From a virus: a DNA stretch of 54,088 bases. The position numbers and the translations under genes were made by a program. Of the stretch, positions 115 to 42,700 are shown piece after piece. Numbering within the stretch: position 1 is the first letter of the stretch; every line of letters starts with the position of its first letter. The notes beneath the pieces were generated by a model. It worked only from the letters and a program-made list of their open reading frames with translations. It did not search any database and was not told the origin of the DNA. The stretch lies in IMG/VR virus record IMGVR_UViG_3300023199_000101, positions 1 to 54,088 of that record. One strand, 5' to 3'.

Positions 115-271
115 CGTGCAAAGCATGGTCGTATAGATGCCCTCGTTAACTGAACGCGGAACATTTCCGCCCTCGTCTGGGTTGTAAGTGTGCAACCGTC
201 TGGACGCGGGTTCGACTCCCGCCGCCTCCACTAAGCTAGCAATGATTCGGGGGCGAATGGATATCGACAGG
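115..271 (+). ncRNA. Permuted tmRNA-like / tRNA-like acceptor domain
   Basis: A T-arm (stem GCGGG 206-210, loop TTCGACT, stem CCCGC 218-222) is followed by an acceptor 3' strand CGCCTCC (223-229) and an A discriminator; no CCA is encoded. Only 18 bases later GGGGGCG (249-255) can pair with that strand at all seven positions, one as G-U. It is followed by AATGGATATCGACAGG, which closely resembles the D-loop segment at the 5' end of bacterial tmRNA. The 3' half therefore lies upstream of the 5' half, as in circularly permuted ssrA genes. The segment 115-150 loosely resembles the AAGCATG region of tmRNA. I could not find a tag reading frame, a resume codon or a convincing P2 helix, so this may be a remnant, a mimic or an integration-site scar. 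Confidence 0.45.
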
Positions 272-326
272 CGGCCAAGTACCTGAACTGACGCATAGCA
301 CTACCCCCGGCTGAGTAGGTCGGGGC

Positions 327-910: not shown

Positions 911-2128
911 ATGAAGCTGAATTTTGTCTGCGGCCGCCAGACCTTTCGCAACGATCGGGGGGAAGGTCAGATCGAATTATACCTGTACCATGCCCGGAAA
1001 AAGCGGTACCTAGCTACCGGTTACTTCTGCAAGCCTGCTGACTTCCAGAGAGGAAAAGTTACGCGCCGCCCAGATGCCGTCAAAATCAACAACCGACTGA
1101 ATCGCCTTCGAAGGGAAGCTGAGGACTATTACGACCGCGCCCAGGTCGCAGGGAATCCCTTCCACATGGATAGCCTGCTGGATCACCTGCGGGAATACCT
1201 TCGAGGATCCGCAGACCGTCCGCCGGAGCAAGAAACATTCTGTTTGTTCGTGCGGGCTAATATTGAACTGATGCGCCGGAAGGGGTACGCCCGGGGGTAT
1301 CTGAAAAACCACCAAACATTGCTGAGCCGCTACCTGGAAAAGTACGATCCCGTGGCCGGGCTGGACGATTTGTCGTACCTGTGGCTTTCCGACCTAGTGG
1401 ACTGGCTATTTCAGCAGCCAAACCAGAAGTACCCGGATGGGAAGCTGTCTGCAAACTATGTCGGGCAGCAGGTAACGCTGCTAAAGGTTCACGTTTCTGA
1501 GGCTGTCCGACAGGGAAAGATCCCATACAACCCGTTCAGCGAGTTCTCCGTCCAGCGGGAAAAGACGCGCCCGTCCTTCCTGACAATCGAGGAAGTGGAT
1601 GCCGTTGCCGCCCTAGACCTGACCGGCCGGGGCCCGAAGTGGGAATTTTGGCGTAAGTGGTTTGTCGTCTTGGCGGATACTGGTCTGCGGTATATCGATA
1701 GCGTGCGCTTGGAGCGACGACATATTAGCGAAACTTCAGACGGTGCTTTCCTTCGCATGAGCCCTCAAAAGACTGGCCGACGGACCTTGGCCGATATTGC
1801 ACTGCCGCTCCGGGATCTATTTAATGGCCGACCGGAACGAATCCTGGTGGAGCTTTGCGATGGTCTGGACCCTGCGGATCGTGTTTTTCCTGGAACAGCG
1901 GATGGCGACCTGAATAGATACTTTCGGGAGATAGGCCGGGCGGCTGGTATTGACAGTCATTTCACGGTTCACTCGCTGAGGCACTCGTTCGGAGTAAATA
2001 TGCTGAATGAAGGATACCCTATTGAGGTCGTTTCGCGTTTGATGGCTCATTCTGATATAAAGACGACGCAGATGTACGCCCACCTGACAGACCAAGGCGT
2101 TGTTCGGATGCTGAGGCGGCGAAGTTGA
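911..2128 (+). CDS. int: Tyrosine recombinase / phage integrase
   Basis: This 405-residue site-specific recombinase is expected to integrate and excise the phage chromosome. An N-terminal arm-binding region (about 1-95) is followed by a SAM-like core-binding domain (about 105-215) and a catalytic domain (about 220-400). Catalytic residues are visible: R260 in TGLR, K287, H354 and R357 in HSLRHSF, H380 and the nucleophile Y389 in QMYAHL. Length and layout match Bacteroidota phage and ICE integrases. The gene lies just right of the putative attP. Nothing is missing from the active site, so the enzyme should be functional. Confidence 0.95.
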   Translation: MKLNFVCGRQTFRNDRGEGQIELYLYHARKKRYLATGYFCKPADFQRGKVTRRPDAVKINNRLNRLRREAEDYYDRAQVAGNPFHMDSLLDHLREYLRGSADRPPEQETFCLFVRANIELMRRKGYARGYLKNHQTLLSRYLEKYDPVAGLDDLSYLWLSDLVDWLFQQPNQKYPDGKLSANYVGQQVTLLKVHVSEAVRQGKIPYNPFSEFSVQREKTRPSFLTIEEVDAVAALDLTGRGPKWEFWRKWFVVLADTGLRYIDSVRLERRHISETSDGAFLRMSPQKTGRRTLADIALPLRDLFNGRPERILVELCDGLDPADRVFPGTADGDLNRYFREIGRAAGIDSHFTVHSLRHSFGVNMLNEGYPIEVVSRLMAHSDIKTTQMYAHLTDQGVVRMLRRRS

Positions 2129-3566: not shown

Positions 3567-3664
3567 TCGCATCATGCCTACTATTTGCCCTGGTGGGCTT
3601 CGCCCTGGGTATCGTCTGGACCTGCTGGCGCATTTCCCGCCTGCTGAAAAACTGGCCTGAATGA
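3563..3664 (+). CDS. 33-residue membrane peptide
   Basis: This short gene starts by ATGA overlap with its upstream neighbour and ends by ATGA overlap with the RuvC-like gene. The product is one transmembrane helix (about residues 3-20) followed by a short basic tail. The tight coupling on both sides is the main argument that it is real. Function is unknown. Confidence 0.5.
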   Translation: MIASCLLFALVGFALGIVWTCWRISRLLKNWPE

Positions 3665-4332
3665 AAATGACCAGCCAGCAGCTGAAAGAGCTTCGAGCGC
3701 GGAAGCCTGGCATTGAAATAACGCAAACCGTTAAGAGAATCATCGTAGGCTTCGATGCGGATGTTTCGGCCTGCGGTGTGGCTATGTACGATGCTGCCGC
3801 CGGGGAAGTCCTGGAAAAGGAGTGCATCAAATACAGGCTTATGAACGAATGGCTCAATGATATGAGTCGAGACTACGACAGAGACCGGTTCTTGGTGCGT
3901 ATCGAGATCCCTACTGAAAAGACCGCGTTCGGTGTTGTATCTGTATCCAGGGGCAGTAAGGGGGCATTCAAGACGATCTATAATTCTGGCCGCTGCCGAC
4001 AGATCGCTGAGGAAATGTACGAGCTATGCCTGGCGAAGCGAATCCCTGTTCAGCGCGTCGATAGTGATACGAGGATTAACTTCAAGAGCCAAGGGAAAAG
4101 CCGTGCCTGGCTGAAAACGACAACGCCGGGCGACTTTGCCCTGCGAGTAGTGAACCTGGTGCGCCAGGGGCGCGTGAACGATATCTACCCTACAAAGGTG
4201 CCAGCCAAGTTCGTGAAAGACTGGTACGGGCTGCCGGTAGCCGGTAACGACGAAGAGAAGGATGCACTTTGCCTGAGTGTTCCCGAAATGGCCTGGAGGA
4301 AGTATTCCAACGCAATTCAGTATAGCCGCTGA
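3661..4332 (+). CDS. RuvC-like Holliday junction resolvase / RNase H-fold nuclease
   Basis: The 223-residue protein begins its fold with RIIVGFDADVSACGVAMYD, the first beta strand of RNase H/RuvC enzymes with catalytic D32. A second acidic residue, E82, lies in VRIEIP. A late acidic cluster, NDEEKDALCLS, supplies the remaining metal ligands. Phage RuvC homologues resolve branched DNA before packaging or act in recombination. It sits in the early operon upstream of the Rad52-like annealing protein, consistent with recombination. It overlaps the tiny membrane gene by 4 bases. Confidence 0.75.
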   Translation: MKMTSQQLKELRARKPGIEITQTVKRIIVGFDADVSACGVAMYDAAAGEVLEKECIKYRLMNEWLNDMSRDYDRDRFLVRIEIPTEKTAFGVVSVSRGSKGAFKTIYNSGRCRQIAEEMYELCLAKRIPVQRVDSDTRINFKSQGKSRAWLKTTTPGDFALRVVNLVRQGRVNDIYPTKVPAKFVKDWYGLPVAGNDEEKDALCLSVPEMAWRKYSNAIQYSR

Positions 4333-4384
4333 AAAAATCGGCTTTTTGTTTGGAACTGATCCCTGTCCGAATTGTTGTTTTAGT

Positions 4385-4642
4385 ATGAGTAAGGAATTAG
4401 CGTCGGGCATCGTTTTTTCTATCAGGCAGACCAAGCAGGCTTGCTTGGAAGCGGCAGAAAACGCAAAAGCGCTGGCCCTGTCAAAGCTAGATCCTTTCAA
4501 GTTTGACGACCAGTTCATGCGCCAGCAGATTGCTGCTATTGATCCGGAGGACTGCCTGCCGGACGCGCTGAAAGCCCCGGAAAAGAAGAGGCCGGTAAAG
4601 ACCAAGCCTTCCGGGTTCACTGCGAAAATACTTGGTTTGTAG
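4385..4642 (+). CDS. Hypothetical small protein
   Basis: This 85-residue soluble protein has a helical N-terminal half and a Pro/Lys-rich C-terminal half. No family is recognised. It is the last gene before a clear terminator at 4725-4758. The ATG at 4385 was chosen because the upstream in-frame extension overlaps the RuvC-like gene. Confidence 0.5.
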   Translation: MSKELASGIVFSIRQTKQACLEAAENAKALALSKLDPFKFDDQFMRQQIAAIDPEDCLPDALKAPEKKRPVKTKPSGFTAKILGL

Positions 4643-4724
4643 TTGAAAAAGCGTACATTTGTAAATATAACCCACCTACCTGGGGCATCCCTGCCCCGCT
4701 TTGTGGCGTTTGTTGTTTGATATA

Positions 4725-4758
4725 AAAACGGCAGGGCTAAAAACCTGTCGTTTTTTTT
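4725..4758 (+). terminator. Rho-independent terminator
   Basis: AACGGCAGG (4727-4735) pairs with CCTGTCGTT (4744-4752) with one G-U, followed directly by a run of T. It closes the operon beginning at 2732. Confidence 0.85.
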
Positions 4759-4774
4759 ATGCGCAAAAATGTAA

Positions 4775-4782
4775 TATATTTG
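4775..4782 (+). promoter_or_regulatory. Bacteroidota -7 promoter box (TATATTTG)
   Basis: TATATTTG lies between the terminator and the gene at 4815, 33 bases before its ATG. Confidence 0.6.
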
Positions 4783-4814
4783 CCTCGTCCCGGAGCGCTT
4801 ACAAAGCGCTTTCA

Positions 4815-6473
4815 ATGAGTACACAAGACAGGAAGGATTTTGCCATCAAGATGGCCCCAGTAGCGAGAGCATTCGCAAAGATTAAAAACCTGGGGCACGT
4901 CGGATCCGTCGTATTTTCTACCACTTCAATAACACTGGCCCTGTACGGCTTGGCCGAAAGCCGCCTGCAGGCGAGTACCTGGATTCTGTGGATCGGTGCA
5001 GCCCTGGCGCTTTTCTTTGCCGTGGCGATTGAGGCCGGTACAAAATACTTCCTCCCCCTGGTCGTCAGACAAGTCGTCGGTAAGTTCTACCGAAGCGGCC
5101 CGCAGCGGTTCATCCTGGCCATGCTGCTGGTCATGACTGCTGGCTTTTTGGTCGTCAACCCACTGACTACGATCAACGGAGGTAAGTTCATCGGGGCGAA
5201 CACGGTAGGCGACTTTCAGCAGACCAGCACTGAATCACTGGACAGCACACGCGCTTCGCAGCTGTCGATGATAGAATCCGGATACGACAGAAGCGCCGCG
5301 CTGATTAAGGAAAAGTACAGGGAGCAGGCGGCAGCCGTACAACAGGAGTATGCCAGCAGGATCTCGGCAAGCCAGCAAAAGGAAGCTCACTACCGGAGCC
5401 TGAACCGAGAAAAGCACCAGTGGGCTGTCGGTAGTGCCAGGGCTGAACGAGTTAAGCAGTCGAAGCTGACTGAGCGCCGCGATGCGAAAAAGGCCAAGCT
5501 GATTGCATCGATGAACAGTGAACTGGCCGACCTGCAGGAGAAGCACCAAGATCGGCTGACCGGGATCGATACTACACTAGCAGCGCAATATGCCCTAGTG
5601 AATAAGAAGGATCAAGTCCGCATCAAAACCCACGCTACCCTATCTGGAGCATCGTTCACCTTCTTTCATATCCTGGCCTGGGTATTTGTCGCTATCGTTG
5701 TGGTTGGGACAGTAGCGAGTGAATACTACCACGAGTATAGCGAACACCACGACGAGCAGGAGGAACTGATGCGCGAGAAGTCCCCGGCAAATCGCTTCAT
5801 GGATGTTCTTTCTAAGGCGTACCTGAACCGGGCGAATGCCTGGATCGATACCTTTGAGGCCTGGGTAGAAAATCCTGGGCCAACGGTAGGGAGTTCGCTG
5901 TTGTCTTTCCTGTTTCATGTGGCAACGCTTGGGATGTTCAAGCGTTGGCAGCCCGGCCCAACGGCTACGGTGGCTGGCTTCCAGTCGGGCCTGTTTGGGG
6001 ATAGTGGCCAAGGGCTAAGACCCAACGCCTCAACGCCTGAAACCCCAGTTGGCAACGGGGTTTCAGAGCGTCTACCAACTGATAGCGAGCCTGAAACAAC
6101 ATCTAGGACAACGGCTAAGCCAACGGAATCTGTAAGCGTTGGAAAAGAGAACGACGGTTCAGGGAAGGCGTTGGCGGTGGATGACAGAAGCGTTGTCATC
6201 GTCGAGTGGTCTGGAATGCCTGCCATAGAAATCGAGGACAAGCAGACCGGCGAGACGACCCTGAAAACGATGGCCGACATCTGTAAGCAAGTGAGCGCCT
6301 ACAAAAGCAAGATCGCGAAAACGAGAAAGCGCATCCTTGGCCTGGAGGCGGGAACAGTGGAAACGTATAACCTGGAGGCAGCCCTACGGAAGGCGAAGGG
6401 TGCGCTGCATAATCAGACGAAGCGATACCAAGAGTGGGTAAGGATTAAGAAAGCCCTGGAGGATATGCAATAG
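4815..6473 (+). CDS. Large membrane protein with central coiled coil
   Basis: This 552-residue protein has hydrophobic segments near residues 28-46, 56-74 and 99-114, a long charged coiled-coil stretch (about 150-270), a fourth hydrophobic segment near 280-300, and a hydrophilic C-terminal half with a Thr/Ser-rich linker and a final helical region. It has its own promoter box and is followed by a terminator, so it is probably a one-gene unit. Its place among early genes argues against a structural role. Host-membrane remodelling or exclusion functions are possible but unsupported. No family is recognised. Confidence 0.6.
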   Translation: MSTQDRKDFAIKMAPVARAFAKIKNLGHVGSVVFSTTSITLALYGLAESRLQASTWILWIGAALALFFAVAIEAGTKYFLPLVVRQVVGKFYRSGPQRFILAMLLVMTAGFLVVNPLTTINGGKFIGANTVGDFQQTSTESLDSTRASQLSMIESGYDRSAALIKEKYREQAAAVQQEYASRISASQQKEAHYRSLNREKHQWAVGSARAERVKQSKLTERRDAKKAKLIASMNSELADLQEKHQDRLTGIDTTLAAQYALVNKKDQVRIKTHATLSGASFTFFHILAWVFVAIVVVGTVASEYYHEYSEHHDEQEELMREKSPANRFMDVLSKAYLNRANAWIDTFEAWVENPGPTVGSSLLSFLFHVATLGMFKRWQPGPTATVAGFQSGLFGDSGQGLRPNASTPETPVGNGVSERLPTDSEPETTSRTTAKPTESVSVGKENDGSGKALAVDDRSVVIVEWSGMPAIEIEDKQTGETTLKTMADICKQVSAYKSKIAKTRKRILGLEAGTVETYNLEAALRKAKGALHNQTKRYQEWVRIKKALEDMQ

Positions 6474-6627: not shown

Positions 6628-6849
6628 ATGATGAAAAGCAAAACAACAGTAAACCGCCGCCCGGTCGTTGAAACCATTGAGGATGCCAGCTTTAGCTGGT
6701 TCTTCCCGGATGGATTCCTGGCTGAGCGCGACCAGCGCACCGCGATAAGTTCTGAAACTCTGATCGAAGAACCCACCGACGAGCAGAAAGCTCAGTGGGC
6801 CTGGGAAATCGAGCAGATTCTTGTTCACCCTTCAAACCGCAGAAAATGA
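6628..6849 (+). CDS. Hypothetical small acidic protein
   Basis: This 73-residue protein of unknown function immediately precedes the Rad52-like gene; the ATGA overlap at 6846-6849 implies translational coupling. Its acidic, Trp-containing C-terminal half may form a helix. A role alongside recombination is suggested only by the coupling. An alternative ATG lies one codon downstream. Confidence 0.6.
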   Translation: MMKSKTTVNRRPVVETIEDASFSWFFPDGFLAERDQRTAISSETLIEEPTDEQKAQWAWEIEQILVHPSNRRK

Positions 6850-7553
6850 GCAAGACAATGAAAATATGGGAGGCATTAACTCCCGTAGATCCTCAGTACA
6901 CTAAGAAAGTCCCGCTTGGCGGTCGTAGGTTGACAGCTATCAACGCGACCTACCGGTTCCAGCGAGCTACCGAATACTTTGGCCCTATGGGGCTGGGTTG
7001 GGGCGTAGAGGACGAGCAGTACGACTTTCAGCAGCTGGGAGCCGAAAAGCACGATACCCTATGCACCTACCGTGCCGTGCTGTGGTACATTGATCCTGAG
7101 AGTTCCGAGACTGGAAAAATCCAGATTAGTGCAGATATCTGGGTCTGGGAATACTCGCGCAAGTATCAGGAATGGCAGCGCCAAGAAGACCTTTTTAAGA
7201 AGGTTCAGACTGACGCGCTGACCAAAGGCCTGTCGAAAATAGGCATGGCCAGCGAGGTGTTTAAAGGAATGTGGGATGACCACAAGTATATGGCGAAAAT
7301 CCAGGCTCAATTCTCTGGCCAGAACGGGAATGAGTCAGCTAGACGCAAGCTGACCAAGAAGCTGCTGGAGCAGGCCGAGCCTGGAATGCAAATCGGTGTG
7401 AAAGAGCAAGGCATGACCTTGAAGCATGTGCTGGAAGCATTCGCCAACAAAGGCTTTACCCTGGATCCCGACATGGAAAAGCATGTTTCTGATAAGGTTC
7501 GCCGTTGGGCGAAAGAAGCTGAGGAAAAAAGGGGCGAAAAAGTCCGGCCGTAG
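6846..7553 (+). CDS. Rad52-like phage single-strand annealing protein
   Basis: This 235-residue protein resembles phage Rad52-superfamily annealing proteins. It opens with a short leader followed by RRLTAINATYRFQRATEYFGPMG, the lysine- and aromatic-rich motif that precedes the beta-sheet core. It continues with a central strand-rich region, then VQTDALTKGLSKIGMASEVF and a WDDHKY motif, as in lactococcal-phage Sak-type proteins. Such proteins anneal complementary strands during recombination-dependent replication. The C-terminal 70 residues are charged and probably interact with SSB or a nuclease. It is the last phage-like gene before the AT-rich island. Confidence 0.75.
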   Translation: MSKTMKIWEALTPVDPQYTKKVPLGGRRLTAINATYRFQRATEYFGPMGLGWGVEDEQYDFQQLGAEKHDTLCTYRAVLWYIDPESSETGKIQISADIWVWEYSRKYQEWQRQEDLFKKVQTDALTKGLSKIGMASEVFKGMWDDHKYMAKIQAQFSGQNGNESARRKLTKKLLEQAEPGMQIGVKEQGMTLKHVLEAFANKGFTLDPDMEKHVSDKVRRWAKEAEEKRGEKVRP

Positions 7554-7701: not shown

Positions 7702-8400
7702 ATGACAAGTGTAGATTTCATTGCAAAACATCTCCCCCTCGAAAATTTAGGGATTCCTATTTTGCCTGTTAATGATGTTTGTTCATTTACTGGCAAAACA
7801 ATCAAAGAGGGAGTTTACAACAAAAAACTTATCAAAAAAACATTTACCGACCATGCTTACTTGAGATACCCTTCCGATTATTCAAGTGTTGAAGCTGCGC
7901 TATGTATAGAAGCTGTAATCCCAGCAAAAAAGGGTTTAAGTTCGCTTAGAAATTACTCATACTTTGTATCTGAAAGGAATTTGAAACTATTGAAGCGTGA
8001 GGAAATATTAGACTTGATGCTGAATATTAATGAAAGCCCGTTTGTGCTTGCTGTAACTTATTCAAATAAGAAACACACGTCTTACAAAACAACGCTTAAC
8101 TATAATATCGAAAAATTTGTCGTTACAACTGATGTTGGCGATGTGTTAATTGAGCGAAAAGGGTTACTTGAGATACTACCAATTTTGCAAAACTGGTATA
8201 CTGTTGTTGATGGCAAGCAATGTACAGCATCACAACCCACTTATTTCACAAAATCAGAAATATTGAGCGGGAGCGAAAATATTAAGCGTATCCGGCAATA
8301 CGGAATTGAAAAATATTGCCTTGAAAATGCGGAAATTGAAAAATACCGAAATACGGCATTTCTTAATCTTATTGTTCACATTCTTAACAAAAAAGTCTAA
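7702..8400 (+). CDS. csf1: Type IV-B CRISPR-Cas protein Csf1 (Cas8-like)
   Basis: This 232-residue protein is the proposed large subunit of a type IV effector. The N-terminal region carries NDVCSFTGKTIKEG and FTDHAYLRYP. The centre has PFVLAVTYSNKKHTSYKT followed by FVVTTDVGDV. The C-terminal part is helical. These match my recollection of the Csf1 pattern, but fewer Cys residues are clustered than in zinc-finger Csf1 proteins. It is the first gene of a tightly coupled AT-rich operon with csf2, a 58-codon ORF, a CysH-like gene and csf3. That context gives most of the confidence. The ATG is preceded by an AT-rich promoter-like stretch. Confidence 0.75.
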   Translation: MTSVDFIAKHLPLENLGIPILPVNDVCSFTGKTIKEGVYNKKLIKKTFTDHAYLRYPSDYSSVEAALCIEAVIPAKKGLSSLRNYSYFVSERNLKLLKREEILDLMLNINESPFVLAVTYSNKKHTSYKTTLNYNIEKFVVTTDVGDVLIERKGLLEILPILQNWYTVVDGKQCTASQPTYFTKSEILSGSENIKRIRQYGIEKYCLENAEIEKYRNTAFLNLIVHILNKKV

Positions 8401-9638
8401 TGCTTAGAGTTAATTACAAAGCGGAAGCCTTACAACAAATTCATACTGGCGCAGACGAAAATCATGGCACGGTAACATTGTTGCGACGTGAAAAACGTCG
8501 GCTGAAAACGCCAGTTAAATTCACATCGAAATTCAAGTCTGAACAGGAGCGAAGAGAAACGTTGCTTACTATTTTGTTGGCAGTTTACAAGTCTATTGAC
8601 AAAGATCTGAAAGCAAGCAACTATGGTTTTTACGATGCGTATGCCAGCAAAATACTTGCTGCAACAGGCGTCAAAACTCGCTACGAGTTTTTGACTGAAC
8701 TATGCAAATCTTGTGGTGTTCGCACCATTGTGGAAAAAGACAATAGTGCAGTAATAAAAGCAATTGATATTTTTTCAGACGAAGAGTTATTACAGACTAT
8801 CCGCAGCGAACATCAATACCTAATGTTGATGCTTCGTGACCATGTACAGACGAAAGGGAAGTCAGATTTTTTCAACCAGGACAATTCGGCTTCAAGCCTT
8901 ACTTTTGAGAAGCATTTTGAGTGGATCCCCTTCATTGCAGGAAACTCCGTCAGGGGTGTCATACGCCGCATCGTGATGCGTGACTTCCTTGAGCGCATTG
9001 GCGTAAACAAAGAATCGTGGGGCGTAGAAAAAGACATGTATCACCAGTTGATGACAGGGGGCAACATTACTAGCTCAACAGCTTTTGAAGATATTGAACT
9101 TAGGGAAAAATATATTTTCCTCTGTCCCATGATTGGACTTCTGGGAAGTGCAATTGGCAATATGACCATTCAGGGCAGCATGAAAACTGGGGCTTTGCGC
9201 CCAATGTGCAAGGAACATGGGAACGGGGATGTTTCATTTTGGGAAACCATTGGAAGGGCTTTTGGCACACGTTCGGACACATCAAAGACGGAGCGTGACA
9301 TTCGTATTGATCAAGCTGAAACAGATGACAAGTCAGCAAATCAGATGAAATATGAATTTGAAGTATTTAATACAGGCACCTTGTTCGATGGTGATTTTGT
9401 GCTGGTGTCAGATGACAAAACATTGGTAAGTGCCTTTTGGTATGCCTTGAAATTGTGGAAAGAATTTGGTTTTGTTGGTGGAAATTCTGCAAGAGGTTAT
9501 GGGAAAATGGACCTTCAAATAGATATTCCCGAAAGTGCAGAAAAAATGTACTTGGAGCATATTGAAAATGTGAAAAATGATGCACTTGATTTTTTTGCAA
9601 TACCAAGAAAACAGGCATTAAAAAACGTATTGGCATGA
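8400..9638 (+). CDS. csf2: Type IV-B CRISPR-Cas backbone protein Csf2 (Cas7-like RAMP)
   Basis: This 412-residue RAMP protein is expected to polymerise along a guide RNA as the Cas7-type backbone. The first strand and loop read EALQQIHTGADE with a following LRREKRRL. The conserved RAMP motif IPFIAGNSVRGVIRR lies at about 176-190. The glycine-rich loop GFVGGNSARGYGKMDL lies at about 357-372. Between the first strand and the GNS motif there is a helical stretch (about 45-150) that looks longer than in the Csf2 proteins I know. The start overlaps the csf1 stop (TAATG), and the stop overlaps the next ATG (ATGA). Confidence 0.85.
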   Translation: MLRVNYKAEALQQIHTGADENHGTVTLLRREKRRLKTPVKFTSKFKSEQERRETLLTILLAVYKSIDKDLKASNYGFYDAYASKILAATGVKTRYEFLTELCKSCGVRTIVEKDNSAVIKAIDIFSDEELLQTIRSEHQYLMLMLRDHVQTKGKSDFFNQDNSASSLTFEKHFEWIPFIAGNSVRGVIRRIVMRDFLERIGVNKESWGVEKDMYHQLMTGGNITSSTAFEDIELREKYIFLCPMIGLLGSAIGNMTIQGSMKTGALRPMCKEHGNGDVSFWETIGRAFGTRSDTSKTERDIRIDQAETDDKSANQMKYEFEVFNTGTLFDGDFVLVSDDKTLVSAFWYALKLWKEFGFVGGNSARGYGKMDLQIDIPESAEKMYLEHIENVKNDALDFFAIPRKQALKNVLA

Positions 9639-9811
9639 AAAAAATAACCAACAAAGATGTTTACACAAGCGCTGTTGAGCGCTTAGAATTCACATTTAAA
9701 GAATTTGATCTGGAATTGGAGATGCAACCAGACGAAGTGTTAAGACTAAAGCAAATAACAGGACTAGCGGAAATGTTTTCAGATGAGGAATTTTCAAAAA
9801 GCTGGGAATGA
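9635..9811 (+). CDS. 58-residue helical protein inside the type IV-B operon
   Basis: This short, acidic, apparently all-helical protein overlaps csf2 by ATGA and the CysH-like gene by ATGA, so it is translated as part of the operon. Type IV-B systems normally encode a small subunit (Cas11) in the operon. This ORF could be a reduced Cas11 or an unrelated coupling peptide. It is much shorter than the roughly 100-150 residues I would expect for Cas11. No motif is recognised. Confidence 0.6.
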   Translation: MKKITNKDVYTSAVERLEFTFKEFDLELEMQPDEVLRLKQITGLAEMFSDEEFSKSWE

Positions 9812-10560
9812 CAGATTACTGGAAGTCATATTATTTAGCGCATTCAAGAACAAGACTATTTAAGAAGAGAATAGATCTTGCCTTTAAAGTTATTGACAAT
9901 TTTGTGTCAGTTTGCGACAAACCATATATTGGATTCAGTGGTGGCAAGGATAGTTCAGCTATGTTGTTATTGTATCAAAAACTTGGCTTAACAAATATAC
10001 CTGTTTTTACTCAGTCAGATGATTTTGACTGGGATTTTAAAAAACCGACATGTTTAAAAATAATAGGCCAAACTGGATTTTTTGATTACACATACAATGT
10101 AGCAAATGAAAGCGTTTTAGAACAGGTGGGTAATATGGATTTCCTTTCAAATGATTACATTAATATAGACAATGTGTTTTACGGGGAAATTGAAAAGTTC
10201 TACAAAAGTAGAGATCTGAACGGATATTCAATAGGGATAAGAATACAGGAAAGCCGAAAAAGGAAATTTAGGGTATTAACCGCAGGGCAAGTTTCAAAAA
10301 CAAAATCAGGTTTGTGGTCATGCTATCCAGTTGCAAACCTAAGGGGCGAGGATGTTTTTGCTTTAATTATATCTAATGACTTACCATACATGGATGTTTA
10401 CGACAAACATGGCGATAAAGCGCCTCACGAAATTAGGTTCAGTTGGGTAACAAATCCTGAACTATTTCACAGGGGAGTATTAGTTTGGCTAAAACAAAAT
10501 TATCCTGATCGATACAATAAATTAATTGCCATTAATAAAAAAATAAAATGTTATGTCTAA
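9808..10560 (+). CDS. CysH-like PP-loop ATPase associated with type IV-B CRISPR
   Basis: This 250-residue member of the adenine nucleotide alpha-hydrolase / PAPS reductase-like family has the PP-loop SGGKDSS at residues 44-50 and a QSDDFDWDF segment. CysH-like genes are the established accessory marker of type IV-B CRISPR-Cas loci, and their role there is unknown. No sulfate-assimilation genes lie nearby, so a function with the Csf complex is more likely than cysteine synthesis. It overlaps csf3 by 8 bases. The usual C-terminal Cys motif of true PAPS reductases is not evident. Confidence 0.85.
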   Translation: MTDYWKSYYLAHSRTRLFKKRIDLAFKVIDNFVSVCDKPYIGFSGGKDSSAMLLLYQKLGLTNIPVFTQSDDFDWDFKKPTCLKIIGQTGFFDYTYNVANESVLEQVGNMDFLSNDYINIDNVFYGEIEKFYKSRDLNGYSIGIRIQESRKRKFRVLTAGQVSKTKSGLWSCYPVANLRGEDVFALIISNDLPYMDVYDKHGDKAPHEIRFSWVTNPELFHRGVLVWLKQNYPDRYNKLIAINKKIKCYV

Positions 10561-11197
10561 TTACAAAATCACATTCCAAATAAAAACCCCTGTATCATTT
10601 CAAGATACTATTATGTTTGACGGCATAGTTGCTTATGCCTACGCACAAGATCAGATGAAAGGAGTGCGTGGGCAGGCGCAAAAACTAAGCTATTCAAAAG
10701 ATGAATTGATAGATTTTTCTTCTATGCCAATCATAAAGCATGAAGATGGTTATTTTATGGCATCGTGGATGTTCTACGAAATGGATGAAATGGTAGAGTA
10801 TTTGGGCAGTTGGAAAAAACGCTGGGCAAATGAACATGATCACCTTTCCGACTTTGGAAAGCAAAAAAGAAAAGTTAGAGTTGATGCTGCCAACTTCAAG
10901 TCTTACGATGTGCCTATTCGATTAGTAGATATTTCTGAATGCTGGTTTTTTTTTCAATCTCAAAATGTGCAGGAGGTCGAAAGGCTTCTGAGTAAGCACG
11001 TTGTAGGTATTGGAAAAAAAATAGCACAGGGAAACGGATTGATTAAAAGCTTTGAGATTGAGGAATTACAACACAATCCCTTTGACGAACTCATACGCCC
11101 AATTCCTACTATTAAGCGAGGTGATAATGTTAGGTTTACGGGCTATTATCCACCATATTGGATGTCCGAAAATCAAGGTTTTTGTTTGGTCTATTAA
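10553..11197 (+). CDS. csf3: Type IV-B CRISPR-Cas protein Csf3 (Cas5-like RAMP)
   Basis: This 214-residue Cas5-like protein would cap the 5' end of the guide in the effector. It begins with YKITFQIKTPVSFQDTI, a RAMP first strand. The glycine-rich loop GIGKKIAQGNGLIKSFEIEE lies at about 149-168. It ends with PIPTIKRGDNVRFTGYYPPYW, a C-terminal pattern typical of Csf3. It is the last gene of the cassette and overlaps the CysH-like gene. Placing the CysH-like gene between csf2 and csf3 is unusual relative to the type IV-B layouts I know. Confidence 0.85.
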   Translation: MSNYKITFQIKTPVSFQDTIMFDGIVAYAYAQDQMKGVRGQAQKLSYSKDELIDFSSMPIIKHEDGYFMASWMFYEMDEMVEYLGSWKKRWANEHDHLSDFGKQKRKVRVDAANFKSYDVPIRLVDISECWFFFQSQNVQEVERLLSKHVVGIGKKIAQGNGLIKSFEIEELQHNPFDELIRPIPTIKRGDNVRFTGYYPPYWMSENQGFCLVY

Positions 11198-13043: not shown

Positions 13044-14519
13044 TCATCGGCTGGACCTATATCCCTTTGCCGCCGGGCGGGCGAGCGTGTTATTGATAGC
13101 CATGACCAGGCAATCGACCTCTTCGTCGTGCTTGGCGTTCGGGAACATCGTTACCTGACGGATAAAGTCCTCATTCCAGGGGCCAGCGACTAAAACTACC
13201 CTGCGAGCCTCCAGGAAGGCCGTGACGGCGTTCAAACGAGCGACCTTGTCTCCTTCTACCATTTTCCATTCGACGACGTTCAGCGGCGAATGAGCGCGTA
13301 AATGCTGGACAACAGAAACTCCCGATGCCTTCGGTTCAATGTGTAGTATACTCCTGGCCTGCCCCATCCGAAAAACATATTCCTCCAGGTTCGCCACCAG
13401 GTCCGGGAAGCCCCATCGGCCTTTCAGGAAGTCGAAAAGGAATAGGTAGCCCCGGAACTCAGAATAGCATAGGCAGCCGCTGGGGTCGTTCGCTGTCTTT
13501 TCCTTGTACGCTGTATCAGCTACAAAATGCCGGACAGCATCCCTTGCCCCCTGCGGGAGCTTGTAGTATTCCAGGACCGGCAGCCATTCCTGTTTCACAA
13601 TGTTACCCCCGATCGGCATAGGCTGCTGGCCGTACTGGCCGCCGTACTCGGTAGATCCCAGGGCCGCGCGCTGTTCCTCCAGCACCTTGGGACCCATACG
13701 CTCAGGATCCAGGTAGCCGCCGACATAGATGCCCCGGTACTCTTCAGGCGAAATAGGGTAGTCGTCGGTCGCCGGAAGGCAGATATGCCGAACATTCCCA
13801 CGCGCCAGCATCCGGGCCGTCGGGTCGTCCTCGTGTAGACGCTGCATGATCAGGATCGTCGGGGTAACGGCTTTGTCCGTTTTCCTGGATGCCAGGGTCT
13901 TTTCCAGGAAGTCGTTTACCGTTTTCATCTTTTGCTCGGAAGCAGCCCCTTTCGGGTCGATAGGGTCGTCGATAAGAATAAGATCTGCATGAGATCCGGT
14001 TACAGTTCCCCTCGTGCCAGCCACCATGCGTTCGCCCCCGGCATCGTTCTTGTAGTGCATCTTAGCGTCGAAGTTGCTTCGCATACTGAACAAGTGACAG
14101 TATAGCGCCTGGAAGCGATCAGTGTCCATTAAATCCCTACTTATCGCAGCATGGCGAATAGCCAAGGTAGCCTCATAGGAAACAGATATAATTCGAACAC
14201 TTGGATCGCGAACCCAAAGCCATACAGGGAAAAGAACAGTAGCCATGCTCGATTTCGAAGATCCCGGCGGGATGTTGATAATCAAATCATGTTCTTTCGG
14301 CTTGCCAGATAGCAACACTTCGCCAACGCGCTGCAGTTCGTCGCAGACAATTTTGATGTGCGGTCCTTCCACCAGGGGCGGGTTGCCTGGGATTTCAGGC
14401 CAGAAGTGTAAGAAAAAACGATAATACGATACAGCGATTCGCTTCCCGCGTAGACGGCGTACATCCACCAGGGCATCGGCAGTATCACGAATCAACCGCC
14501 CTGCTCCCTTTGCGCTCAT
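13044..14519 (-). CDS. terL: Terminase large subunit
   Basis: This protein of about 491 residues is the packaging motor ATPase and nuclease. The Walker A-like motif IPPGSSKSS follows a helical N-terminus. Walker B appears as LILIDDPID, and a coupling motif follows around LIMQRLHEDD. The C-terminal RNase H-like nuclease begins at RHFVADTAYKEK, with further acidic residues downstream. The N-terminal start is uncertain: ATG 14519 gives a 35-base overlap with the small subunit, and an ATG 14 codons upstream is also in frame. It is transcribed leftward with the lysis genes, away from the head and tail modules. Confidence 0.9.
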   Translation of the reverse strand: MSAKGAGRLIRDTADALVDVRRLRGKRIAVSYYRFFLHFWPEIPGNPPLVEGPHIKIVCDELQRVGEVLLSGKPKEHDLIINIPPGSSKSSMATVLFPVWLWVRDPSVRIISVSYEATLAIRHAAISRDLMDTDRFQALYCHLFSMRSNFDAKMHYKNDAGGERMVAGTRGTVTGSHADLILIDDPIDPKGAASEQKMKTVNDFLEKTLASRKTDKAVTPTILIMQRLHEDDPTARMLARGNVRHICLPATDDYPISPEEYRGIYVGGYLDPERMGPKVLEEQRAALGSTEYGGQYGQQPMPIGGNIVKQEWLPVLEYYKLPQGARDAVRHFVADTAYKEKTANDPSGCLCYSEFRGYLFLFDFLKGRWGFPDLVANLEEYVFRMGQARSILHIEPKASGVSVVQHLRAHSPLNVVEWKMVEGDKVARLNAVTAFLEARRVVLVAGPWNEDFIRQVTMFPNAKHDEEVDCLVMAINNTLARPAAKGYRSSR

Positions 14520-15030
14520 ACGCTTTCTCGAGTTGCGCTTCCAGTTTCTCCAGCTGCTCATCCGTCAGGTGCGAAAAGTCGTATTTACCCCCCGCCGGCG
14601 AGTGTTCGATGTGCTGCTTGTGCTTAAAGTTCTCAGGATCCTTATTCGTCAGGGAAAAGATAATAGCCGTGTCCGAGGGTTGCACAAATTTCTTTGTTAC
14701 CACCTGGCTTACCACTTTAAGTTTGCCGTCGACGTTTTTGTACTCAACTTTTTTTTCTTCAACCTCGTACCCGGAAACGCGCTTTTCAAGGCTTTTTCTA
14801 GACTTGATTTTTAGACGAGTAAAATAGGCGGATTCAGCTTTCGCTTGTGCTTTTTTATATCGTCCTCTGATTTCTCCGTATTGATCCACCCAATTATAGA
14901 AAGTCGCAGGAGAAATACCTTGATTGCGACAGCAATCTTCTAAGGTATAATCGTCGGTAGCGTACAAGTCACAAACTCCAGCCGCCTTCTTTAACTTTTC
15001 TTGGTAAGAAATTTTCCTCCCTCTCTTCAT
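14485..15030 (-). CDS. terS: Terminase small subunit
   Basis: This 181-residue protein lies immediately upstream of terL. Its N-terminus contains a helix-turn-helix (LEDCCRNQGISPATFYNWV, about 30-50), expected to recognise the packaging site. A basic central region and a helical C-terminal tail (DEQLEKLEAQLEKAYERKG) suit oligomerisation and TerL contact. The identification rests on position and architecture. Confidence 0.8.
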   Translation of the reverse strand: MKRGRKISYQEKLKKAAGVCDLYATDDYTLEDCCRNQGISPATFYNWVDQYGEIRGRYKKAQAKAESAYFTRLKIKSRKSLEKRVSGYEVEEKKVEYKNVDGKLKVVSQVVTKKFVQPSDTAIIFSLTNKDPENFKHKQHIEHSPAGGKYDFSHLTDEQLEKLEAQLEKAYERKGSRAVDS

Positions 15031-18367: not shown

Positions 18368-18703
18368 GTCCCGAAACACCTATGTTGAAATCCAAATCTC
18401 CGAAAGATGCTGCCGTTCGCGCACAGGCGTTCTGGCCTGCCGTCGGGCCACTCACACCTGGCAGCCACCCAGGGCAATTCGGCGACTTGGTGTGCCCCGG
18501 AAGCCCTGATCCGGAAACAAAAGAACCCATATTCTTAGCCTTGGATCCTGTCATCGCAGGACAAATCTAGTGTATATTCTTTAATATTCAAAATATTCTG
18601 CAATGAAATTTTTTTCGTGAAAACGTTAAATAATTTGCATGCTCTGAATATCCGCCTTTTTCCCCGAGGTCCGTTAATCCGGGAGCGGGGGGGGGTAAAC
18701 ATA
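18368..18703. other. Unassigned stretch upstream of the iteron cluster
   Basis: The leftward terminator at 18341-18367 implies a minus-strand transcript through 18370-18570. Short ORFs exist on both strands but none reads convincingly as protein, so this may be an untranslated RNA or a decayed gene. From 18571 the DNA is AT-rich, ending in a run of nine G at 18687-18695 just before the repeats. Confidence 0.35.
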
Positions 18704-18845
18704 GGATTAAGGGGGTATAAATGTACGATTAAGGGGGTATAAATGTACGATTAAGGGGGTATAAATGTACGATTAACCATAATAATACAAGAGTAATAAT
18801 ACAAGATAGAATAAGCGGACCTGTTTCAAAACAGGCCCGATCCTG
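18704..18845. repeat. Iteron cluster duplicated from the replisome-organizer gene
   Basis: Three exact tandem 22-bp units beginning GATTAAGGGGGTATAAATG lie at 18705-18726, 18727-18748 and 18749-18770, with a partial fourth unit. They are followed by AATAATACAAGAG repeats and a CCTGTTT...AAACAGG hairpin. The same series, with two units, lies inside the replisome-organizer gene at 48394-48511 at high identity. This copy is intergenic with no obvious reading frame, so it may be a second origin or a recombination relic. Confidence 0.8.
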
Positions 18846-31076: not shown

Positions 31077-31328
31077 AAGCCACAGTACAAAGCCAAGTGG
31101 GCGAGTAAAAATCAATCCTTCATCGGATCCCGTCAGGAGAATTGTTGGATACTTAATCTTTGGAAGCGGGAGTTTGAGGAAGTCCGCCCGGCCGTAAATC
31201 CTGATCAAGCCGCCCGGATCCTGACCAGGGCCAAAAAGTTCTTTTACGACCGTACTATCGAGCCGCTATGTGTCGGCTACGACGACAAAAGGGGCCAGAA
31301 AAAAAACTTGACATTTTCTGAAAAATAA
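31077..31328 (+). pseudogene. Start-less ORF running into the 485-bp repeat
   Basis: This frame reads as plausible protein (KREFEEVRPAVNPDQAARIL, then KKFFYDRTIEPLCVGYDDKRG) but has no ATG or GTG at its 5' end. It begins right after an in-frame TGA at 31074. Its last residues come from the repeat, which begins at 31295. An ATG in a different frame (31068) overlaps its start. It looks like a gene that lost its 5' end and was cut or altered at its 3' end by the repeat. Confidence 0.45.
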
Positions 31329-31362
31329 TTGTGCAAAACTTGACAATGTGTAAAGATTGGCT

Positions 31363-31370
31363 TATATTTG
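31363..31370 (+). promoter_or_regulatory. Promoter in the repeat (TTGACA...TATATTTG)
   Basis: TATATTTG is preceded 20 bases upstream by TTGAC (31340). The 11-mer AAAACTTGACA occurs twice (about 31303 and 31337), which may be an operator. The same promoter lies at the right end of the window, 54037-54044. Confidence 0.65.
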
Positions 31371-31398
31371 TATCATCAGTTAATCAAAAAAAAACACA

Positions 31399-31536
31399 AT
31401 GAAAAATTGGAATGAATTTCTAGCGGCTTGTAAGATTGCGTGGCAAACAGAAGGGCGCCAAGAACCGGAAATAGGTAGATATTTGCGGAGGTGCGAAAAA
31501 ACCACATCGATTGGGGTTAATCCAGGTAGCCGCTAG
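31399..31536 (+). CDS. 45-residue protein encoded in the repeat
   Basis: This short basic protein starts MKNWNEFLAACKIAWQTEGR and has two Cys residues. It follows a well-formed promoter, with the ATG 28 bases after the -7 box. The right end of the window starts the same gene at 54075. No family is recognised; it could be a small regulator, toxin or phage-encoded inhibitor. Confidence 0.45.
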   Translation: MKNWNEFLAACKIAWQTEGRQEPEIGRYLRRCEKTTSIGVNPGSR

Positions 31537-31597
31537 TGCGTACAAATTGTACAAACAAGAAAACGCATGCACAAAGAACAGCTAAAAAAGGAAATCG

Positions 31598-31634
31598 AAG
31601 CCCGCTTCCAATCGAGGCGGGCTTTTGTTTTTTC
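31598..31634 (+). terminator. Rho-independent terminator inside the repeat
   Basis: AAGCCCGC (31598-31605) pairs with GCGGGCTT (31617-31624), followed by TTGTTTTTT. It closes the promoter/45-codon-ORF unit. Confidence 0.8.
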
Positions 31635-31699
31635 GTTCAACGAGAAAGCAGGATTTGCGGCACTGGACGAAACAACCCTGAGCCGCCAAGTTTCGGGGC

Positions 31700-32062
31700 G
31701 TGTCGGATTGTCAGCCGCTTGGCAGTGTGCTTATCTGTTTTTCTTTTCATCTTATAGCACCTAACGGCTCTGTATGTGAGTGGCTTATTCTGGACCTTCC
31801 GGAGAAGCCTACGCGCCACAAAACGGGCTACGGCAGCTACTGGCATCGGGCAATCCGTTTTGATCCAGAGGAACTGGATTTCAAAATCCCGGAGTGCCTG
31901 GATCCTGCCCGCGACCAAGAACGCTTTGCTTGGAAGCAATGGCGAGACGGCAGCAGGCTGAGAGGCTGGATGAAGCTAAATTACGTAAACCAGATTAAGC
32001 CCGATTGCTGGCTGGCCTGGGGGGTATGGGATGAGCGCATGAGCGTTCTAAACTTAACTTAA
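31700..32062 (+). CDS. Hypothetical protein whose N-terminus lies in the repeat
   Basis: From 31780 onward the frame reads as a normal soluble protein of about 94 residues (EWLILDLPEKPTRHKTGYGS onward, several Trp residues). The frame is open leftward into the repeat to a GTG at 31700, so 26 residues would come from repeat DNA. Either the repeat supplied a new start or it replaced the original one. At the left window end the same frame leads to a stop after 13 more residues. It ends just before the terminator ahead of the head module. Confidence 0.4.
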   Translation: MSDCQPLGSVLICFSFHLIAPNGSVCEWLILDLPEKPTRHKTGYGSYWHRAIRFDPEELDFKIPECLDPARDQERFAWKQWRDGSRLRGWMKLNYVNQIKPDCWLAWGVWDERMSVLNLT

Positions 32063-39766: not shown

Positions 39767-42700
39767 ATGAAAGCGTTGTGGAGGATTGCAGTTTTTCTTT
39801 TGATCGCCGACTGCCTTTTTGGGCAAACCGGCCCGGCAACCCGACCCTTGGTGCGCAGACTGGAGCAAGCGCCCAAAGAGGGATCGATTATCGTATCTGA
39901 TTCAAACCGAGACGGGCAATGGGATTCGACGCTGATCTGGACCGGCGTGTACCTGATCGCTAACGGTGATACCCTGGGTATAGGATCCGGTGGGGGCGTT
40001 CCGCAAAGCCTGACATTCACCAGTCCGACTCTTTCTATTTCGGGCGGCAATAGCGTGGATCTTTCTGCATTGCTCGATAATACCGATGACCAAGTGCTAA
40101 GCCTAACGGGCGACGTGCTGAGCCTGGAGGACGGCGGCTCCGTAAACCTTTCTTCCTACTTAGATAATACCGATACGCAAGACCTTAGTTTAGCCGGGAA
40201 TACACTTTCCCTTACAGACGGAGGGAGTGTAGACTTGTCGGCATTCTTGGATAACACAGATTCGCAAACGCTGAGCCTGGCCGGTACGGTGCTTTCTATT
40301 TCGGGCGGCAATAATGTGGATTTTGCTTCCTTGGTAGCTCCTCAAAATCTGACATTCGATATATCTACTGGCAATCTTTCGATATCAGGAGGTAATACTG
40401 TAACTATTCCCGAAATGGTTGGTGCTAGTTCGGTAGCTGCAGGCGAGCAGGGCCTAGTTCCTGTTCCACTGGCCGGGGACGAGGAAAAGTTTTTGCGCGG
40501 CGATGGTTCATGGTCAGACGTAGCTGGCAATCAGACTATAAGCATAACCGGAACGGATTTATCGATCAGTCAGGGCAACTCGGTGGCCTTAGCCGAGGTG
40601 CTGGCTCTGAATGACCTATCGAACGTAAATGCCAGTCCGGCAAACGGGCAGGTTTTGAGCTGGAATGGAAGCCAGTGGGTAGCTGCTGACGATGCTACCG
40701 GTGCGCCCGGAACCTCTGATGGGGTGGTCGATGGGGTAAGCATTAGCAATGATTCCTTGGTGCTAACTAGGACGGAAAGCCTGGGGGATTTGCGGGTTGA
40801 CTTGGACCCGTTCCTGGACAATACCGACGAACAGACACTGAGCCTGGCTGGTACTGATCTTTCTGTTTCGGGAGGGAATACCGTAGACCTGTCCGGCCTG
40901 CAGGATGGCACCGGTACAGACGACCAGCAGCTGACATTAACCGGGAATACTCTTTCCCTGGAGGACGGCGGCCCCGATATTGATTTAAGCGGCTATATCG
41001 ATAATACCGACAACCAAGGTTTTGACATTGCGAGCCTAAATGGTACGGACTTGGAATTGAGCCTCGACAACGACGCGGCTACAACGATCATTGACCTTTC
41101 CAGCTTGCAGGATGGCACCGGTACGGACGATCAACAGCTTTCGCTGGCTGGAAACAGTTTGTCGCTGGAAGACGGCGGGAGCGTTAGTTTGGCTTCGTAC
41201 CTGGACAATACGGACGAGCAGACGCTGAGCTTCACCAGCCCAAATCTATCTGTTTCAGGTGGCAACACGGTAGATCTATCTGCCTTGCAGGACGGCACCG
41301 GCACGGACGATCAAGCGCTGAGCTTGGCAGGTACGACGGTATCCTTGGAGGATGGCGGAAGTGTGGATCTGACCGAGGTGTTGGCTCTGAATGACCTATC
41401 GAACGTTAATTCCAGCCCTACGAATGGACAGGTGCTTTCGTGGAACGGTTCAGCCTGGGTAGCGGCTGACGATGCTACCGGTGCGCCTGGAACGTCGGAT
41501 GGGGTGGTCGATGGGGTAAGCATTAGCAATGATTCCTTGGTGCTAACTAGGACGGAAAGCCTGGGGGATTTGCGGGTTGACTTGGACCCGTTCCTGGACA
41601 ATACCGACGAACAGCAGCTTTCCTTGACTGGCAACAGCTTAACTCTGGAGGACGGAGGGAGCGCTATTGACCTGTCCGGCTACCTGGATAATACCGATGC
41701 GCAGACGCTGAGCCTGGTAAGTACGAATCTGACTATATCGAATGGCAACACGGTGGACCTGTCTGCCTTGCAGGATGGAATCGGTACGGATGACCAGACG
41801 CTGAGTTTCACATCACCGAACCTGTCGATATCAGGGGGTAACTCGGTTAACCTGTCTGCCTTGCTGGATAATACAGACGACCAGACTATTGATGTTTTTT
41901 TGCTGTCTGGTGACGACTTGCAACTTTCCCTGGAGGGCGATGGAGAAGCTACGAAAACGGTGGACCTGAGCGGCTACCTGGATAATACCGATACCCAGGA
42001 TCTTTCGCTGGCCGGCAACACACTGAGCCTGACCGATGGCGGAAGTGTGGACCTGTCGCTGTACCTGGATGACACCGACGACCAGACGCTGAGTTTCACT
42101 AGCCCGAACCTGTCTATTTCGGGGGGTAATAGCGTGAATCTGTCCGCCCTGAACACGGAGCGCACCGATGAGGAAATCGAGGATGTGGCCGGCGCCATGT
42201 TTTCGGGCAATGCGGAAACGCTCATAACGGCAACATACCAAGATGTTGACGGAACTATTGACCTAGAGGTGAACGACGACCTGAGCTTGTACGATAACTC
42301 AACTTCGGGATTCGTAGATGGCACAGAACTTGCCGACACGGCAGCCGCTATTCGAGCAGACTTTCCTACAACCGCAGACGGCGTTGCGTCTTCCGGGTCG
42401 CTTGATACATTGAGTGAGGAAATTGACATTGTGGTCACCGATGCCCCAGATTTTTCGATTGACCTTTCGAAAATTGACGTTTTGCCTTCGTTTTTAAGCT
42501 GGGATAAGGATGTTGCAAATGAGGGTAGACTTTCCACAGCTAATCTTTTCGGCGATGGTGCGATTACCAGCAACACTCAGGGAGCACTCGCAATCAAATT
42601 TCCTGCCGGCTTCGGGCTGAACACTATGGTTACGAGCGCGTCAAATGGCGGCGAAATTGAGTTTGAGGTCGATACTTCAGAGGTAGCTACGCTGAGTGCT

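Follow-up and report, generated by a model that had tools for sequence, protein, structure and literature searches.

Evidence for Cas11 nested in Csf2 and for exchange of the slot enzyme gene in phage-borne type IV-B CRISPR-Cas operons

This study concerns a type IV-B CRISPR-Cas operon in a virus record of 54,088 nucleotides (IMG/VR record IMGVR_UViG_3300023199_000101); the whole record was analysed and is called the window here. In this operon the small subunit Cas11, which in most cases has a gene of its own, is, with high confidence, nested inside the Cas7-like protein Csf2, and among related operons the enzyme gene lying between csf2 and csf3, a slot that holds a CysH-like gene in the window, has very probably been exchanged between relatives. 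A swap of the enzyme with the rest of the operon kept points to a role for the enzyme as an interchangeable payload. The features of the operon, including an additional small open reading frame (ORF) of 58 amino acids (aa), are as follows.

7702..8400, plus strand: csf1, type IV Cas8-like large subunit (PDLC01721 3.9e-24; TIGR03114 2.6e-13, below its cut-off)
8400..9638, plus strand: csf2, type IV Cas7 with Cas11 nested inside, 412 aa (PDLC01572 5.4e-41; AlphaFold2 (AF2) model; VIA)
8541..8861, plus strand: nested Cas11 domain, residues 48-154 of the csf2 product (PDLC01695 2.3e-9; PDLC01694 3e-7; hhalign)
9635..9811, plus strand: 58-aa ORF, resembling the C-terminal tail of a ParB-like protein (tblastn)
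9808..10560, plus strand: CysH-like PP-loop protein, in the very probably exchangeable slot (PF01507 8.2e-8; motif and cysteine survey)
10553..11197, plus strand: csf3, type IV Cas5-like (PDLC01727 2.3e-32; TIGR03116 1.4e-13, below its cut-off)

A reading made from the DNA letters without database searches (the sequence-only reading) had proposed four coupled ORFs encoding Csf1, Csf2, a CysH-like protein and Csf3. All four were found to be open at these coordinates, profile hidden Markov models (HMMs) agreed, and the motifs that had been quoted (GNSVRG, GFVGGNSARGYGKM, SGGKDSS and PPYW) are all present. However, that gene list overlooked the Cas11 inside csf2 and the fifth coupled ORF, which at 58 aa was too short for an ORF list with a 60-aa minimum. 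The start of csf2 overlaps the stop of csf1 (TAATG). For Csf1, all five PADLOC matches were to type IV Cas8, and its CxxC..CxxC zinc finger appears mostly lost in an alignment judged by eye. Csf2 was also matched by PDLC01724 (1.1e-38), by the Pfam family RAMPs (1.6e-5) and, below its cut-off, by TIGR03115 (4.3e-7). When a Csf2 profile (A11) was compared with the PDB, it reached 'Cas7c' 11fs (1.9e-11), the IV-B structure 7jhy (2.6e-10) and the IV-A3 structure 8rc2 (7.8e-6), and Csf2 alone is therefore insufficient to assign a subtype.

The profile support for the operon genes is far above chance, and the window contains Csf1, Csf2, Csf3, Cas11 (as a domain of Csf2) and a CysH-like gene, by which type IV-B is recognised; the operon is almost certainly of this subtype. 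Type III and non-CRISPR proteins of the RAMP (repeat-associated mysterious protein) superfamily were ruled out because the best-scoring models are type IV Cas7, and type IV-C because Csf1 matches type IV Cas8 models only. Type IV-A was ruled out as DinG was not detected: PF13307 had no match in any of 12 records including the window, while the control was positive in 10 of 14 genomes. The sequence-only reading had named two outcomes that would speak against it, a RAMP protein falling in type III or outside CRISPR and no Csf1 match; both searches were run, and Csf1 was matched and the RAMP protein scored best with type IV Cas7. Its claim that a phage carries a type IV-B operon was thus borne out by the HMMs, the gene content and the phage hallmark genes described below. 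It also suggested, as a possible function, that the operon may act in competition between phages or reprogram CRISPR RNAs of the host.

Loci for comparison were gathered by scanning viral contigs, genome contigs and 395 Bacteroidota genomes with Csf2 and Csf3 queries. Such operons were found in 24 viral records (the window, L002, L003, L005, L006, L008-L013, L015-L019, L024-L027 and L029-L032), among which the near-duplicates L011/L012 (100% identical over the locus) and L026/L027 (99.96%) are counted separately, and in four metagenome-assembled genomes (MAGs) or genomes (L020, L021, L064, L065, L066). Other duplicates were merged (L004, L007 and L034 with L002; L014 with L003; L022 with L006; L023 with L005; L028 with L009; L033 with L024). 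Only 3 of the 395 Bacteroidota genomes were positive, one being the genome of L020 itself. There was no match in INPHARED phages to Csf2 of the window or of L006, and the CysH-like protein of the window had no relative in the viral contigs searched.

The fusion of Cas11 into Csf2 was found in 16 loci (the window, L002, L005, L006, L009, L020, L021, L024, L025, L026, L027, L029, L030, L031, L032 and L064), 13 of them viral contigs. In the window, residues 48-154 of the csf2 product are matched by both Cas11 models given above, and a profile of the insert compared with nine standalone Cas11 proteins gave an hhalign probability of 98.5 (E 1.9e-15, 107 columns). All 13 fused proteins aligned (the 16 without L027, L064 and L021, which is truncated at its 5' end) carry the insert in the same position, after the N-terminal strand and before GNSxRG, and it is absent from four aligned relatives that have a separate cas11 gene. 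The AF2 model of the window Csf2, built with 13 sequences, has a predicted local distance difference test score (pLDDT) of 79.2 and a predicted template modelling score of 0.74, and it places helices at 48-150 between strands. The rest of the model matches Csf2 of IV-A and IV-B as well as Csm3, with VIA Z 16.9 to the IV-B chain 7jhy_a and 18.8 to a IV-A3 chain.

The published IV-B structure has Asp42 of Csf2 in a 'catalytic loop', according to the available part of the paper (PMC7937560). Residue 61 of the 7jhy Csf2 aligns with position 180 of profile A11, just before GNSxRG, and the insert therefore lies in the stretch that holds Asp42. As the cleaving Asp of Csm3 belongs to the stretch that Cas11 occupies here, the fused Csf2 itself is unlikely to cleave target RNA.

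The evidence for exchange of the slot enzyme comes from two viral contigs (L005 and L006) and one Bacteroidales MAG (L020), whose Csf1, Csf2 and Csf3 are 83-93% identical (82-88% in DNA) and whose slot proteins are 26-29% identical. DNA similarity stops at the 3' end of csf2. Between L005 and L006 it resumes in the final cysH codons, and in the two comparisons that involve L020 it does so 16 bases ahead of csf3. Its outer 5' limit lies 13-34 bases before csf1, and its outer 3' limit lies 14 bases past csf3 in L005/L020, whereas for the remaining two pairs it falls inside csf3, in the 3'-terminal part. No other DNA similarity was found among the three in the stretches compared, and because the similarity is limited to the csf1-csf3 span, their conserved unit holds no array and no cas6.

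The trees, which exclude L027 and L064 and were built with a quick method, place the parts of the operon differently. In the Csf2 tree L005, L006 and L020 stand together (Shimodaira-Hasegawa-like approximate likelihood-ratio test, SH-aLRT, 99.5). In the CysH tree, in which L030 is a long branch, L006 groups with L009/L031/L021, L005 with L025/L029 and L020 with L026, and a union of the three is rejected (approximately unbiased test, p 5.4e-5). A chimeric assembly is an unlikely source of this pattern because the three come from separate assemblies and csf2 and cysH overlap by 8-17 bases in each. We conclude that the enzyme gene between csf2 and csf3 was, with little room for doubt, exchanged between relatives.

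The slot can also be filled by another class of protein. PF01507 was detected in 22 of the 24 viral records and is missing from exactly two, L002 and L024, where proteins of 235 aa and 219 aa (38% identical to each other) stand in place of CysH. These two gave nothing meaningful in Pfam, PADLOC, PHROGs or the PDB. When a profile of the pair was compared with eight phage DpdAs (7-deazaguanine DNA transglycosylases), related to tRNA-guanine transglycosylase (TGT), the hhalign score was 38.7 (probability 60.7, E 8.3e-5) over 121 columns, starting from a DSGA(F/Y) motif. The controls stayed lower, with a maximum of 19.5 for 100 column shuffles, 21.7 for 25 other ORFs of phage 9g and 15.1 for six unrelated alignments. 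From these comparisons the slot protein of L002 and L024 is probably kin to DpdA/TGT, the signal being moderate.

Several results weigh against this kinship. Single DpdAs scored only 14.6-29.8, and six of the eight did not exceed, or barely exceeded, the control-ORF range; the family profile is thus the source of the signal, which slightly lowers our confidence. Pfam is silent on the slot protein, including the TGT family PF01702, although the 9g DpdA likewise has no Pfam TGT match. The AF2 model of the slot protein is poor (pLDDT 46.2), and the top rows of a Foldseek search with this poor model were mostly barrel enzymes, with a best E of only 0.029. A phmmer search with FolE, QueD, QueC and QueE of phage 9g against the window and 40 stretches, the L002 and L024 contigs included, gave no match at 1e-2; a canonical TGT needs no neighbouring 7-deazaguanine synthesis genes. 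Against two canonical TGTs the pair scored 17.8, but the eight-DpdA set itself reached only 24.5 against TGT, which makes profile comparison weak at this depth. Compared with phage DpdAs such as those of 9g and phiSM, the slot protein is similar in profile over the 121 columns, but it is shorter (219-235 aa, against 240-430 aa for all eight DpdAs) and sits in a type IV-B operon on contigs where those synthesis genes were not detected by phmmer.

L024 and L002 stand apart on the Csf2 tree, and the class of slot protein therefore changed at least twice (parsimony, counted by hand). Further searches for relatives returned weak matches. The two-sequence profile had three in the 395 Bacteroidota genomes (E 0.005-0.009), and NF041059 had seven below its cut-off in 198 Bacteroidota genomes, probably ordinary TGT, where phmmer with the 9g DpdA was negative. 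The L024 protein had one weak tblastn match among phages, in Erythrobacter phage ZS04 (E 0.08). Adding ZS04 to the pair raised the DpdA match to a score of 48.5 and probability 88, but its kinship is unproven and it was left out of the argument. As a separate observation, in phages phiSM, Finch and Quesadilla (L048, L052 and L053) the DpdA gene lines up with genes for ParB-like and QueC-like proteins, families like the companions of the type IV-B slot.

The CysH-like protein of the window carries the motifs SGGKDSS and GIRIQES. A survey of 24 CysH-like proteins was made, taking one per locus and two from L030, with L065, L066 and the duplicates L012 and L027 left out. S-x-GKDS was present in all 24 (as SGG, SWG, SAG or STG), and the GxR..E pattern was unmatched in one (L008). 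None of the 24 has the C[GP]xH motif, the type found in 3'-phosphoadenosine-5'-phosphosulfate (PAPS) reductases. A profile of 14 of these proteins reached CysD (1zun, 1.2e-17) best in the PDB, then PAPS reductases, LarE and QueC, and weakly Cap9 (9nto_B, 7e-4).

The reach to Cap9 bears on one alternative, a protein-conjugation system. Here a partner protein would receive a nucleobase or nucleotide from the slot enzymes, in the manner of Cap9 (QueC-like) and Cap10 (TGT-family) of the type IV cyclic-oligonucleotide-based antiphage signalling system (CBASS), and the filament formed by Csf2 would be the modified or sensing partner. That PP-loop and TGT-family enzymes share one CBASS pathway, according to the available part of PMC11996544, agrees with this. 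CBASS requires both enzymes together, however, and each of the loci studied encodes a single one of the two, so we regard such conjugation as improbable.

The 58-aa ORF shares four bases with each neighbour, at the stop of csf2 and at the start of cysH. In tblastn its 36-aa alignment with the end of a ParB-like ORF of L030 shows 58% identity (E 1.9e-9), as does a 31-aa alignment with L011/L012 at 3735-3827 (E 1.6e-8), and it had no PADLOC or Pfam match; in sequence it resembles the C-terminal tail of a ParB-like protein. In L030, the ParB-like ORF (ParB_N 4.8e-5, just under the cut-off) lies between csf2 and csf3 beside a 405-aa protein with PF01507, the PAPS-reductase domain (1.6e-13). L005 and L006 share an ORF of 94-109 aa in place of the ParB-like piece, which looks helix-turn-helix-like by eye. 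A similar pairing is found in IbrA/IbrB, which we take to be pairs of a PAPS-reductase-like and a ParB-like protein. L030 has both ORFs in full, whereas the window keeps, next to its CysH-like protein, the ParB-like tail only. To our knowledge, IbrA/IbrB have not been linked to a Cas7 complex.

The source of any guide RNA was looked for in the window and its relatives. No chain of at least three repeats was found in the window (two-repeat mini-arrays were not specifically sought). Cas1 was absent from all 21 records searched, the window included, and no Cas6 was found in the window by the Cas6_C profile, which missed the Cas6 of L032, or by phmmer with seven Cas6 proteins. Among the fused relatives, cas6 lies in the L064 operon and beside the operons of L029 and L032, and it is also present in the unfused relatives L003, L013, L015 and L019. 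An array of 11 repeats of 32 bp (GTTTCAATCCACGC...) lies at 10416-11106 of L031, 0.95 kb downstream of cysH and at the contig end. With three fused relatives carrying cas6 and one having an array nearby, CRISPR RNAs (crRNAs) supplied in trans are possible.

These loci are what speaks for crRNA-guided interference, in which crRNAs from CRISPR loci of the host or of co-resident elements would let the complex block rival phages or plasmids without cleavage, as in type IV-A. The window, however, yielded no array, cas6 or DinG. The L031 array may be the host's, because its repeat looks like one of type I-C and the contig ends there. Its spacers also had no convincing match: those in the collected loci were of 15 bases at E 0.025, and those in phages and plasmids were repeat-driven or short. 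Interference of this kind is, in our judgement, quite unlikely.

A second array was rejected as a guide source for type IV-B. On the L009 contig (L097, 3348-3579) there is a mini-array of four 30-nt repeats, the last degenerate, with 36-38-nt spacers, directly followed at 3591-4895 by a 434-aa Cas12f/TnpB-like gene (PF07282 4.8e-18). It most likely belongs to this gene, which it adjoins, since the type IV-B operon is about 34 kb away. The contig recalls a plasmid with IV-B plus Cas12b3 mentioned in the available part of PMC12669027.

We give about an even chance to the explanation that the phage-borne type IV-B module is an RNA-bound filament serving an interchangeable nucleotide-chemistry enzyme. 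In such a module, Csf2 with its built-in Cas11 would polymerise on a short RNA, with Csf3 (Cas5-like) and Csf1 (Cas8-like) as caps; the filament is suggested by analogy with the solved IV-B complex, the fold of the window Csf2 being a prediction. As each Csf2 brings its own Cas11, the ratio of filament to 'belly' would be fixed at 1:1. The work would be done by the slot enzyme, which in the window would be a PP-loop enzyme (of the ATP alpha-hydrolase type) with the 58-aa ParB-tail partner, and in two relatives the DpdA/TGT-like protein. This payload could modify a nucleotide-containing target, which may be a nucleic acid that the complex has bound or, as with Cap9/Cap10 in CBASS, a partner protein, and the phage might benefit in conflict with host defence or rival elements.

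The gene identities, the nesting and the payload exchange are observed, and no array, Cas1, Cas6 or DinG was detected in the window; the recruitment of the enzyme, its chemistry, its target and the benefit are inferred. What weighs against such a module is that no computed result supports binding of the enzyme to the complex or modification, that cas6 was detected in only three of the 16 fused loci (L020, L021 and L027 being tested with one Cas6 query only) and that an array within the analysed stretch, of ambiguous ownership, was found in only one of them. In addition, the solved IV-B complex carried heterogeneous RNA of 55-60 nt that was not crRNA-like, as given in the available part of PMC7937560.

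This heterogeneous RNA favours another explanation, that the filament is an RNA sponge which covers the host's small or guide RNAs irrespective of their sequence and weakens RNA-guided defence, with the enzyme as a helper that modifies the RNA held in the filament or controls assembly. Phages could gain from this, and the absence of a detected array, cas6 or Cas1 in the window is in line with it. However, a sponge gives no reason for the exchange of the enzyme among PP-loop lineages and a DpdA/TGT-like protein, nor does it fit with cas6 in three fused loci, and we consider it unlikely.

The filament serving an exchangeable enzyme could be taken one step further, and we offer this tentatively, as a doubtful extension. 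Type IV-B might be a programmable or scaffolded platform that delivers a nucleobase- or nucleotide-modifying payload, with RNA-directed chemical marking as its outcome rather than cutting or silencing. The carrier Csf1-Csf2(Cas11)-Csf3 would be fixed, and the payload classes would be CysH and DpdA/TGT-like. Payloads would then be recombined near the gene ends, since it is the chemical mark that restriction or counter-measures of the host would recognise.

The phage context of the operon is given by further genes of the window.

911..2128, plus strand: integrase (phrog_1 4.9e-34)
6795..7553, plus strand: phage recombination gene upstream of the operon, PHROG name exonuclease (phrog_7838 3e-35)
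13044..14561, minus strand: terminase large subunit (phrog_38 2.2e-87)

As the sequence-only reading had placed it, the operon lies between the recombination gene on one side and a minus-strand terminase/holin/endolysin block on the other, with PHROG matches on both sides. PHROG profiles identified integrase, terminase subunits, holin, endolysin, tape measure and DnaB on the contig, and three of the ten window proteins tested had no PHROG match. The phage assignment therefore holds, while for the temperate lifestyle also claimed the integrase is the single indication. The G+C content of the operon is 37.2%, compared with 50.5% in the contig, which fits a recent acquisition. The Bacteroidota host that had been proposed is plausible but unproven: of two named genome relatives, the closer (48% Csf2 identity) is a Bacteroidales MAG contig. 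Upstream of the integrase, window 196-279 gave an Rfam match to permuted transfer-messenger RNA (tmRNA; 57.3 bits, gathering threshold 47) and none by ARAGORN. It is possibly an attachment site or a phage tmRNA, and because of this match the host phylum was left open.

Other parts of the record were also noted. The window ends recur internally, 1-114 being identical to 31666-31779 (114/114) and 53969-54088 similar to 31295-31414 (106/120), within a repeat region at 31295-31779; this fits a circular or permuted genome whose assembly was broken by the repeat. An ORF of 1482 aa at 39767-44215, which perhaps encodes a tail fibre, contains numerous degenerate repeats (36-176 nt) at 40002-42151. Iteron- or operator-like 22-bp tandem units (GGGGGTATAAATGTACGATTAA) occur at 18689-18793 and at 48401-48461, the latter within an ORF at 48065-49045.

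III-E Cas7-11 effectors have their domains joined end to end. The Cas7-11 effectors of III-E and III-I are like the window protein in having Cas7 and Cas11 in one polypeptide, but, in the available part of PMC12669027, several Cas7 domains and one Cas11 are fused, whereas here one Cas11 lies inside a single Cas7 fold. The type IV-B system of Mycobacterium sp. JS623 (PDB 7jhy), as presented in the available part of PMC7937560, resembles the window in its Csf1, Csf2, Csf3 and Cas11 parts, in having no array or Cas6 and in the Csf2 fold compared above, but it has a separate cas11 gene and is on a megaplasmid, whereas in the window Cas11 is nested and the operon phage-borne. Closer in setting are the Fuxiviridae, viruses of Bathyarchaeia, whose IV-B is virus-borne with a CysH-like protein next to Csf3. 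They are archaeal viruses with a two-repeat mini-array, and in the available part of that paper Cas11 and Cas7 are treated as separate proteins and CysH exchange is unmentioned (PMC10848311). The same part reports type IV in plasmids, prophages and several lytic phages, and the sequence-only reading therefore overstated the novelty of type IV-B on viruses, which is already known.

What appears to be new is the Cas11 nesting, the 58-aa ORF and the slot exchange. In the open-access literature searched, no report was found of Cas11 nested in Csf2 (including the available parts of PMC12669027, PMC8175902, PMC7937560, PMC10848311 and PMC11656645), nor of CysH exchange or a TGT in type IV-B, though surveys outside open access or supplements may hold one. 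The nesting and the exchangeability of the slot enzyme gene thus seem new, and the DpdA/TGT-like replacement of CysH was not found either, as far as this literature was searched.

To summarise, what type IV-B does has been an open question ever since its description, and CysH has been pointed to as a key to it (available parts of PMC8175902 and PMC7937560). The nested Cas11-Csf2, with the small subunit tied 1:1 to Cas7, is expected to yield more homogeneous particles for structural studies. The natural swaps of CysH in a near-constant background, together with the DpdA/TGT-like replacement, indicate which chemistry to assay and provide ready-made chimeras with which to do so.

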